A DNA stretch of 5,517 bases from contig JACRDV010000063.1 in assembly GCA_024860865.1 (NCBI GenBank), positions 1 through 5,517 of the forward strand. Reading direction: 5' to 3'. Under the pieces are notes generated by a model that saw only the letters and a program-made list of their open reading frames with translations, did not search any database and was not told where the DNA came from. Each line of letters opens with the position of its first letter. Within the stretch, counting starts at the first letter, position 1. Made by a program: the position numbers and the translations under genes. Source of the stretch: JACRDV01 sp024860865 [NCBI: Methanobacteriota archaeon] (GTDB lineage: Archaea; JACRDV01). This document shows, one piece after another, positions 3,603 to 5,192 of this stretch.

Positions 3603-4337
3603 TTATTTTTCCTTCACATCGTTCCAAATATGCTTAAAATAACTTTGATAAAGTTTTATACAACTTGGGTTTTTGTTATACAGTGCAAAAAATGAGCTCC
3701 CCGGATCTTGAGATGCTAAAATCAGCTCTTTATTATCTAGCAAAATAAAACGAGAATGATCATGTTTATAATCATGCACATCTGCGCCAATTTCATCAAA
3801 TATCGCTTTACAGTAGTCATCGAACATGCCTAATGCTTTAACCTTAACACCCCTTTTAGCTGCTTTCTTTAACTCTCCCCCAATTGCTGGCGTACTTATT
3901 GGGTGCACTCCTATAATTAAAATCTCTTTTCTGGCACTGTTTATCATTTCAATAATTTTTTTCTGGATATTTTCTACTCCTCTGATGACCCACATTGCCT
4001 CTTCTGGGGGCGAATATCTCATTGTTCGATCATAGAGTGGCGCTATTGCTTTCAAGAGTTTATCAATTGCTTTTTCTCTCTCTTCAAGTTCTTTTTTTAA
4101 AACAATTTTAGGATCTATTGCCTTGTACCTTCTTGGCCTTCCGGGTTGTTGTTGAACAAAACCCCTCTTCTCAAGACTAGTTAGAATGTCATATTCCCGA
4201 GAATAGGGTATTCCTGCCAATTCTCTGATTCCTTTAACAGTAGATGGCCCGTTAATTGCCAGCGCCAAGTATGTTTTGGATTCATATTCCGTAAGATTAA
4301 GCAATTTTAGCTGTTCAACGAGCTTTGGGTCAATCAT
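3603..4337 (-). CDS. TrmB-family transcriptional regulator with degenerate PLD-like domain
   Basis: A 244-residue DNA-binding regulator. The N-terminal winged helix-turn-helix (about 7-75) shows the TrmB pattern: LNLTEYESKTYLALAINGPS, then IRELAGIPYSREYDILTSLE as the recognition helix region, and a wing with QQPGRPRRYKAID. A charged, probably coiled-coil helix (about 76-100) links it to a phospholipase-D-like domain (about 113-240) with MWVIRG, ILIIGVHP and a degenerate HKD motif, HSRFILLD (194-201), where Lys is replaced by Arg. Such domains in TrmB-like regulators sense ligands or dimerise and do not act as enzymes. It is shorter than Thermococcus TrmB (about 338 residues) and seems to lack the extra C-terminal sugar-binding part, so sugar sensing should not be assumed. 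It is divergent from tusA-dsrE and probably controls that pair and itself. The ATG at 4337 has no Shine-Dalgarno and a TATA-like box about 28 bp upstream, suggesting leaderless mRNA. The ligand is unknown. Confidence 0.88.
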   Translation of the reverse strand: MIDPKLVEQLKLLNLTEYESKTYLALAINGPSTVKGIRELAGIPYSREYDILTSLEKRGFVQQQPGRPRRYKAIDPKIVLKKELEEREKAIDKLLKAIAPLYDRTMRYSPPEEAMWVIRGVENIQKKIIEMINSARKEILIIGVHPISTPAIGGELKKAAKRGVKVKALGMFDDYCKAIFDEIGADVHDYKHDHSRFILLDNKELILASQDPGSSFFALYNKNPSCIKLYQSYFKHIWNDVKEK

Positions 4338-4360
4338 ATATGTTATATTTTTATCATTAA

Positions 4361-4369
4361 ATATTTAAG
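4361..4369 (-). promoter_or_regulatory. Candidate TATA box for the trmB-like gene
   Basis: Read on the minus strand the bases are CTTAAATAT, centred about 28 bp before the ATG at 4337, the spacing expected of a leaderless archaeal transcript. The box is part of a perfect 12-bp palindrome, TTAAATATTTAA (4357-4368). Its BRE position falls on the left arm of the 22-bp palindrome at 4373-4394. Confidence 0.5.
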
Positions 4370-4372
4370 TTA

Positions 4373-4394
4373 ATTTACTTTAAATCAAGTAAAT
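4373..4394. promoter_or_regulatory. Palindromic operator candidate between trmB-like and tusA genes
   Basis: ATTTACTT (4373-4380) and AAGTAAAT (4387-4394) are perfect inverted 8-bp arms separated by TAAATC. The centre lies about 17-18 bp from each of two opposed TATA-like boxes (4361-4369 minus, 4397-4404 plus), so each arm covers the BRE region of one promoter. This is a natural place for a dimeric winged-helix repressor to control both directions. The motif differs from the TATCAC-N5-GTGATA site of Thermococcus TrmB. Function is inferred. Confidence 0.5.
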
Positions 4395-4396
4395 AA

Positions 4397-4404
4397 TTTA
4401 TATT
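4397..4404 (+). promoter_or_regulatory. Candidate TATA box for tusA-dsrE
   Basis: TTTATATT is a close match to the archaeal TATA consensus. The predicted transcription start is near 4426, giving a leader of about 12 nt before the ATG at 4438, or a leaderless GTG start at 4426. The right arm of the palindrome occupies its BRE position. Confidence 0.5.
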
Positions 4405-4437
4405 TGATAATATGTTAAAACTTTTGTGAGTGCAAAT

Positions 4438-4713
4438 ATGTCTGAAATAACAGCAGCTCTATCACTTGAGTGCCGCGGAATGCACTGCCCATTGCCCGTA
4501 GTACAAATGAAAATAGGATTGTCAAGAATTAATGTAGGAGAAATATTGGAGATTATTGCCACAGATCCTGCCACAGAAAAGGATATCCCACCAGCAGCCA
4601 GAGCTCTTAGTGCAGAGATAGTGAAACAAGAAAAAGTAAGCAAAATTTGGGTATCTAAGACCGGAGAGAAATACAATATAGAATATCGCTATTATATTAG
4701 GAGGTTGAAGTAA
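4438..4713 (+). CDS. tusA: TusA/SirA-family sulfur carrier protein
   Basis: A 91-residue cytosolic protein with the TusA fold. Such proteins carry sulfur as a persulfide on the Cys of the CPxP motif and pass it between sulfurtransferases, for tRNA thiolation, cofactor sulfur delivery or dissimilatory sulfur metabolism. Here LECRGMHCPLPVVQMK (10-25) carries Cys17 in CPLP, the active cysteine, plus Cys12. It is followed by VGEILEIIATDPATEKDIP and a C-terminal strand region ending in YRYYIRRLK, all typical. The ATG at 4438 is preferred because it leaves the usual short lead into the first strand and has GTGA, complementary to the 16S rRNA end, 8 nt upstream. A GTG at 4426 would add four residues and coincide with the predicted transcription start. 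The TAA stop shares one base with the next gene's ATG (TAATG). The pairing with a DsrE-like protein points to a sulfur-relay role; the recipient is not in the window. Confidence 0.93.
   Translation: MSEITAALSLECRGMHCPLPVVQMKIGLSRINVGEILEIIATDPATEKDIPPAARALSAEIVKQEKVSKIWVSKTGEKYNIEYRYYIRRLK
4699..4706 (+). promoter_or_regulatory. Strong Shine-Dalgarno for the dsrE-like gene inside tusA
   Basis: AGGAGGTT lies within the last codons of tusA (Arg-Arg-Leu), 6 nt upstream of ATG 4713. It fixes the start of the second gene and, together with the TAATG overlap, indicates coupled translation of the pair. Confidence 0.8.
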
Positions 4714-5192
4714 TGGCTGAAGAAAAAAAGAATAAAATGTGTATTATCTGCAGTAAAGGTACTCTAGATATGGCTTACCCTCCCTTCATGTTAGCAACTG
4801 CTGCAGCTGGCATGGGATGGGAAGTGCACTTGTTCTTTACACTTTGGGGAATAAATCTCATAAAAAAAGGAGGTGCAGAAGCTCTTAAAATAACGCCTGT
4901 TGGAAAACCGGAAATGCCAATGCCAATGCCGAACATCCTTGCTATAATTCCTGGAATGACACCAATGGCAACCAGTATGATGAAGGGACAAATTAAGAAG
5001 AGCGGCATCGCAACAATTCCAGAATTATTAAAACTTACAAAGGAAATGGGGGGCCATTTTCATGCTTGCGAGCCAAGCATGGCTATGTTTAAACTTAAAC
5101 GAGAAGACCTAATAGCTGAAGTAGAAGATATAATTGGTGTTGCAGGTTTTTTAGAACTCGCAGCTGATGCCAATATAACGCTATTCGTCTAG
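4713..5192 (+). CDS. DsrE/DsrF/DrsH-like family protein (DsrE2-type, COG2210-like)
   Basis: A 159-residue protein with the DsrE fold. The diagnostic stretches are SKGTLDMAYPPFMLATAAAGMG (14-35), the strand VHLFFTLWGINLI (38-50), a Met/Pro-rich segment (about 65-90) and HACEPSMAMFKLKREDL (117-133), ending in IIGVAGFLELAADANITLFV. Cys119 sits at the position of the conserved sulfur-binding cysteine of the family. Cys10 and Cys13 form a CxxC near the N-terminus, which may be an extra thiol pair. Proteins of this type are often encoded next to tusA; in the archaeon Metallosphaera cuprina DsrE and TusA homologues bind and transfer thiosulfate. Older annotations call the family peroxiredoxin-like. 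The hydrophobic Met-rich loop may favour membrane or partner contact. The gene is read from the tusA transcript with a one-base overlap, and its TAG stop directly abuts the stop of the facing HAD gene. The family is clear; the cargo (persulfide or thiosulfate) is inferred. Confidence 0.87.
   Translation: MAEEKKNKMCIICSKGTLDMAYPPFMLATAAAGMGWEVHLFFTLWGINLIKKGGAEALKITPVGKPEMPMPMPNILAIIPGMTPMATSMMKGQIKKSGIATIPELLKLTKEMGGHFHACEPSMAMFKLKREDLIAEVEDIIGVAGFLELAADANITLFV

Follow-up and report, generated by a model that had tools for sequence, protein, structure and literature searches.

The window, by which we mean the whole stretch of 5,517 nucleotides analysed here, holds a trmB-like gene and, divergent from it, the gene pair tusA–dsrE2. 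Between the ATGs of trmB-like (4337, minus strand) and tusA (4438) lies a spacer of 100 bp (4338-4437) with 14% G+C, which contains an inverted repeat:

3603..4337, minus strand: gene for a TrmB-family regulator of 244 aa, with a winged HTH, a helical linker and a single PLD-like effector domain
4373..4394, no strand assigned: putative operator, ATTTACTT-TAAATC-AAGTAAAT, with the core TTTACTY-N6-RAGTAAA at 4374-4393
4438..4713, plus strand: tusA, sulfur carrier (Pfam PF01206, 58.6 bits; CPLP motif in the sequence)
4713..5192, plus strand: dsrE2, sulfur carrier/transferase (Pfam PF13686, 140.4 bits), overlapping the tusA stop by one base

An alternative upstream start of tusA is a GTG at 4426, and the dsrE2 product scores 154.3 bits against the NCBIfam model SulfCarrDsrE2, under its cut-off of 210. 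Elsewhere in the window are genes for a nickel-insertion protein (1-972, PF01969) and a PRC-barrel protein (1046-1303) and, at 1304-2865, a branched-chain polyamine synthase (BpsA_C) gene that overlaps an S-adenosylmethionine decarboxylase gene, likely a polyamine operon.

The inverted repeat has 8-bp arms that are 100% complementary and separated by 6 bp, exactly where the initial annotation had placed a perfect 8-6-8 palindrome; its core in the window reads TTTACTT-N6-AAGTAAA. Judged on the window alone, it is not clearly beyond chance. Among 2,000 dinucleotide shuffles of the 100-bp spacer, 28.6% contain a perfect 8-bp-arm repeat with a spacer of 0-20 bp, and 2.75% contain one with a spacer of exactly 6. 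In its own genome (1.54 Mb, 92% complete) the only exact match to the palindrome is the window site itself, and near-matches with up to three mismatches are no commoner than those of a reversed control (45 versus 51). Both the shuffles and the genome-wide counts are what a chance product of very AT-rich DNA would give.

We searched for orthologs of the regulator in 101 genomes of the same domain and then in 23 genomes of one phylum, the Hydrothermarchaeota; the window genome is the sole member of its phylum in the set searched. A first scan of the named genomes with the single regulator protein as query returned no match, and an alignment query found relatives. Orthologs with 46-57% identity to the window protein occur in 13 Hydrothermarchaeota genomes besides the window's own, five of them from one genus; the bearers include Pyrohabitans (JdFR-16, JdFR-17) and Hydrothermarchaeum profundi (JdFR-18, G106). 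When the search was extended to 394 genomes of the domain, the same 14 orthologs came back, with no further one at an E value of 1e-50. A tree that includes 11 other homologues places these 14 in one clade (support 98/99), inside which the place of the window protein is not resolved. Gene order is kept as well: the trmB-like gene is divergent from tusA in all 14 genomes, and dsrE2 follows tusA in 13, being cut by a contig end in the remaining one (G115). A second tusA precedes dsrE2 in JdFR-18. Neither tusA nor dsrE2 was found beside any of 92 other TrmB-homologue loci, within flanks of 1.5 to 4 kb or less.

The pattern TTTACTY-N6-RAGTAAA is present in 14/14 orthologous spacers, although one genome (G044) has no exact copy but two that each deviate by one base. 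Across seven genus representatives, where G001 stands for genus g2 and the mismatched G044 is therefore left out, TTTACT and AGTAAA account for 12 invariant bases out of 14 arm positions, and mean pairwise identity is 93% in the arms compared to 39% in the 15-bp flanks. The seventh base pair varies (T...A, C...A or C...G), and the outer pair is C...G in G115 and G107, with both sides changed relative to the window. The operator proposal thus survived the comparison on which the initial annotation had staked it, conservation of both arms in orthologous trmB/tusA spacers. Since the arms are kept in every orthologous spacer whereas the flanks are not, chance is refuted as the origin of the palindrome and we regard it as very improbable; the significance of the repeat comes from this conservation, the window alone being unremarkable. 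Two spacers hold the operator twice: that of JdFR-18 (L043) has two exact copies 46 bp apart, one of which overlaps the apparent trmB start codon (ATGAGTAAA), and that of G044 (L038) has two operators 48 bp apart, where the promoter-plus-operator block looks tandemly duplicated.

Genome-wide, the 14 genomes contain 15 exact sites, 14 of which lie in the trmB-tusA spacer, and the regulon amounts to nearly one site per genome. The remaining exact site, in G001 (C39:3891-3910, L130), lies between genes for a [NiFe]-hydrogenase small subunit and a phosphodiesterase-like protein (functions by inspection). No such site was found, at up to three mismatches, at five hydrogenase orthologue loci of genus g53, of which two cover only ~276 and ~139 bp upstream (the G001 site is ~70 bp upstream); it is lineage-specific or due to chance. 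A wider regulon in the window's own genome was considered and rejected, as one-mismatch sites are at chance level (four including the window site, compared to five for the reversed control). The three besides the window site are one on C127 and two on C149; of the latter, one is inside a 396-aa ORF and the other may lie immediately before the true start of an antitoxin-like gene (by inspection).

Presence of the site goes together with presence of the regulator. Four Hydrothermarchaeota genomes (G111, G112, G113 and G116; 89-100% complete) have dsrE2, and no regulator ortholog was found in them; the operator is absent, at up to two mismatches, from their dsrE2 loci (2.8-3.5 kb each), where tusA is beside dsrE2 in two and was not found in the other two. 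Neither the exact pattern nor its core occurs at 95 loci (592 kb) of other TrmB homologues. Because nearly all exact sites are in the spacer and the regulator-less dsrE2 loci lack the site, the adjacent TrmB-family regulator very probably uses the palindrome as its operator. An independent pointer to the TrmB-like neighbour is the TACT/AGTA of the site, a half-site known from TrmB proteins. As the neighbour's binding is read from sequence, the site could instead serve a different, unlinked transcription factor. We consider this improbable, given that 14 of the 15 exact sites adjoin the TrmB-like regulator, that the four dsrE2 loci of relatives without a detected regulator have no site, and that the half-site is one of the TrmB family (PMC4158304).

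How the operator of the adjacent regulator might act depends on where the promoters lie. We scored BRE/TATA elements against the consensus RNAAANNTTTAWAWA with self-set weights (14 points at most) and 500 shuffles per spacer. No clear positional preference emerged from a promoter model built on 211 kb of the own genome with 79 upstream regions, so the choice between the TATA boxes could not be made with it. Two candidates for tusA stand in the window:

4357..4371, plus strand: possible tusA BRE/TATA, weak, TTAAATATTTAAGTT (10.5/14), TATA centre 16 bp upstream of the operator centre
4390..4404, plus strand: alternative tusA BRE/TATA, weak, TAAATAATTTATATT (11/14), TATA centre 17 bp downstream of the operator centre

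On the minus strand a TATA-like string lies on the trmB side, 18 bp from the operator centre. The TATA-like boxes that the initial annotation described at about 17-18 bp on both strands therefore exist as strings (17 bp plus, 18 bp minus), but they do not exceed shuffles: the best scores in the window are equalled or beaten by 436/500 shuffles on the plus strand and 376/500 on the minus strand. This is chance level, and the claim that the window has two opposed promoters is not supported.

The relatives are more informative. In 11/13 of them the tusA strand has a strong BRE/TATA (13-14 of 14 points, reached by at most 5/500 shuffles) towards trmB from the site, and the TATA centre precedes the operator centre by 19-23 bp in ten relatives and by 36 bp in G001 (in G044 and JdFR-18 the distance is taken to the tusA-proximal copy); the TTAAATATTTAAGTT box of the window occupies the position usual in the relatives. 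No plus-strand TATA rises above shuffles in G115 and G107. In the 11 strong-TATA relatives a Shine-Dalgarno-like string starts 0-8 nt past the site; no such string was found before tusA in the window. The site ends 11-23 nt before the tusA start in these 11 relatives compared to 44 nt in the window, 46 nt in G107 and 57 nt in G115 (start codons of the relatives by inspection). As archaeal transcription starts about 26 bp after the TATA (PMC10817205), the operator would cover or adjoin the predicted tusA start in the 11 relatives. On the opposite strand, 12/13 relatives have their best trmB box 15-19 bp from a site, towards trmB, so placed that the left arm would be its BRE; the best trmB-strand score is matched by at most 1/500 shuffles only in three genomes of g24, by 24-98/500 in nine others and by 464/500 in G115. 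A palindromic operator at the BRE/TATA or the predicted start, a trait of the TrmB family, is found in the ortholog group. The notion that each arm occupies one BRE is not supported by the relatives: only on the trmB side can an arm match a BRE-like A-run, and in the 11/13 relatives with a near-perfect BRE/TATA towards trmB the operator lies downstream of the tusA TATA. The window, with weak boxes on either side, is ambiguous.

The explanation that we favour, and hold to be likely, is a dedicated TrmB-family operator at which a dimer represses tusA-dsrE2 downstream of the TATA and is released by a signal. Recognising both half-sites, TTTACT and AGTAAA (with TACT-N8-AGTA as core), the regulator dimer would, when unliganded or unmodified, repress the divergent tusA-dsrE2 operon by occupying the DNA just downstream of the tusA TATA, near the start, so that RNA polymerase is not recruited. 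With the left arm in the place of trmB's own BRE, the same dimer would probably damp the trmB-like gene too. Release of the dimer would come about when the C-terminal PLD-like domain senses a signal from sulfur metabolism. Of the simplest scheme suggested at the outset, autoregulation plus control of tusA-dsrE, control of tusA-dsrE2 by the TrmB-like neighbour is well supported; autoregulation of the trmB-like gene is plausible but weaker, since the trmB-strand boxes mostly do not score strongly.

With 44 nt between site and start, the operator could in the window sit upstream of the tusA TATA, activating or blocking TFB. The operator and regulator would then be the same, with the TATA of tusA to the right of the palindrome and a dimer that activates or, over the BRE, blocks TFB. 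The TAAATAATTTATATT box scores 11/14 at +17, the site is 44 nt from tusA compared to 11-23 nt in 11/13 relatives, and TrmB-family proteins activate if bound upstream of BRE/TATA (PMC4158304, PMC4706686). We think this arrangement rather unlikely, as the TAAATAATTTATATT-side box is not above shuffles and the strong TATA is on the opposite side of the site in the 11 relatives.

The flanking gene, as initially annotated, encodes a TrmB-like regulator: its product matches the TrmB winged HTH (Pfam PF01978) with 78.2 bits against a cut-off of 25.6, and 14/14 orthologs match this model. The TrmB effector domain (PF11495) matches with 34.4 bits and only over positions 1-130 of 233 (residues 114-239 of 244); the full sugar-sensing domain of 233 positions is not present. 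Scores remain far below the NCBIfam equivalog cut-offs for TrmBL1 (93.6 versus 650 bits), TrmB (87 versus 600), TrmBL2 (79.9 versus 530) and halobacterial TrmB (53.7 versus 500). The AlphaFold2 model has a mean pLDDT of 87.2 and a pTM of 0.54, which leaves the relative placement of the domains unsure; residues 76-102 form a long helix in this single-chain model, a candidate for a coiled-coil dimer of the TrmB kind. The closest solved sequences are TrmBL2 (E value 5e-31; PDB 5bpd, 5bqt, 5box) and then TrmB (E value 8e-22). By fold the C-terminal domain is PLD-like, with a Z score of 16.2 to Zucchini (1.8 Å over 124 residues) and of 12.2 to the TrmB sugar domain 2f5t.

Several residues set the group apart. 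Y49 and D50, a Tyr-Asp pair in the recognition helix, are invariant in 14/14 orthologs, and such a pair contacts DNA in TrmB proteins (PMC4158304). Also in the HTH, R38 is found in 13/14 orthologs and E48 in 14/14, each compared to 0/95 other homologues, differences that would fit a private DNA specificity. In the effector domain G143, H194, S195 and C226 occur in 14/14 orthologs compared to 1, 4, 5 and 2 of 95, about half of which have a gap at 194-195; these residues may offer a lead to the ligand. H194, S195, D201 and C226 are invariant in 14/14 orthologs, all in the PLD-like domain. We tentatively suggest, while leaning against it on balance, that TrmB has a sulfur-sensing branch with this regulator as its first member, in which the sugar-binding domain would have shrunk to a single PLD-like (HKD-fold) domain that senses sulfur species and releases tusA-dsrE2. 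The signal might be sulfane sulfur, acting via persulfidation of C226, or alternatively an oxyanion of sulfur (sulfite, thiosulfate) that binds in the former phosphate pocket.

Known systems share parts of this arrangement. TrmB operators are described as TACT-N3-AGTA for Pyrococcus TrmB and TACT-N7-8-GAGTA for Halobacterium TrmB (PMC4158304), and the site here, TACT-N8-AGTA, combines the Pyrococcus half-site with the Halobacterium spacing. The TrmBL1/Thermococcales glycolytic motif is TATCAC-N5-GTGATA (PMC4158304), which the window site does not match. The site had been called unlike the known Thermococcus TrmB motif, which is correct for this glycolytic motif but overlooks the TACT/AGTA shared with Pyrococcus TrmB. 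At malE, TrmB of Pyrococcus furiosus and Thermococcus litoralis has the same half-site and the same HTH Tyr-Asp pair, and the regulator is encoded with its target operon there as well (PMC4158304), whereas TACT and AGTA are separated by N3 rather than N8, the target is sugar transport rather than a sulfur relay, and the protein has 338 aa rather than 244 aa with 130/233 effector positions. Halobacterium salinarum TrmB (VNG1451C) is alike in half-site and spacing, and the G115 and G107 sites are literally TACT-N7-GAGTA; in contrast, it answers glucose and glycerol and is both activator and repressor (PMC4158304), whereas the present genomes have close to one site each, next to sulfur genes.

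TrmBL1/Tgr resembles our proposal in that a palindrome downstream of BRE/TATA blocks RNA polymerase recruitment (PMC4706686, PMC4158304); with TrmBL1 downstream of the promoter elements 9/9 templates were repressed, and with TrmBL1 upstream 2/3 were activated (PMC4706686). Unlike here, TrmBL1/Tgr and the Thermococcales glycolytic motif involve another half-site, many targets and sugar effectors. TrmBL2, the closest solved sequence, aligns with the regulator model at a fold Z score of 15.7 over 214 residues with an rmsd of 21 Å, which we read as domains that are set differently in the model. It is called a chromatin protein (PDB entry title), and a homologue binds coding and intergenic DNA (PMC4158304), in contrast to the single conserved site here. 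OxsR of Haloferax volcanii is, like the regulator, a TrmB-family protein with one conserved cysteine, and has a thiol switch at C24 (PMC9426492), so the family can use cysteine chemistry. It differs in being a single-wHTH protein, whereas the cysteine here, C226, lies in the PLD-like domain, and in acting as activator and repressor, with activation via a CG-rich motif upstream of BRE/TATA (PMC9426492).

New here are the sulfur-relay target, the near one-site regulon and the shortened effector domain with an invariant cysteine. Among the matches listed for the open-access literature, by titles and the openings of abstracts, none concerned TrmB-family control of tusA/dsrE. In bacteria, CstR, sHdrR and SoxR are sulfane-sulfur repressors of sulfur-trafficking genes (tusA/dsrE-type). 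The likeness to the proposed system lies in a sulfur-responsive repressor over sulfur-trafficking genes. CstR is CsoR-type, the other two are described as ArsR-type, and none of the three is a TrmB protein.

DsrE2 is another branch of the DsrEFH family. A published survey of Hydrothermarchaeota genomes reports no DsrEFH genes, in a passage that does not mention DsrE2 (PMC6759336). The window's own genome has dsrA over the curated cut-off (494 bits), adjoined by a second dsr-type gene below its cut-off (G000:C132:3235-5392), from which we infer that TusA-DsrE2 probably serves dissimilatory sulfur metabolism. A dsrA-family match is present in 13/14 regulator bearers, in ten over the cut-off, and dsrA over the cut-off also occurs in 4/10 Hydrothermarchaeota without the regulator; dsrA therefore does not discriminate between them, and what it shows is a general connection with sulfur physiology.

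Taken on the conservation and distribution of the site, the palindrome is very probably a real, conserved and dedicated TrmB-family operator for sulfur-carrier genes. Archaea known mainly from metagenomes would gain one concrete, testable circuit, in which a regulator would act through a 20-bp site on sulfur-carrier genes, and, if true, TrmB-type control would extend from sugars and redox to sulfur trafficking. The Hydrothermarchaeota literature, as far as available, leaves the direction of the sulfur pathway open. As dsrA-type sulfite reductase genes are common among regulator bearers, the regulator's signal could help to tell whether TusA-DsrE2 acts in sulfite/sulfate reduction or in sulfur oxidation. 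Separately, the window's own genome encodes a paralogous TrmB-like regulator (G000:C26; L147:1910-2668, minus strand), divergent from an apparent radical-SAM gene (by inspection).
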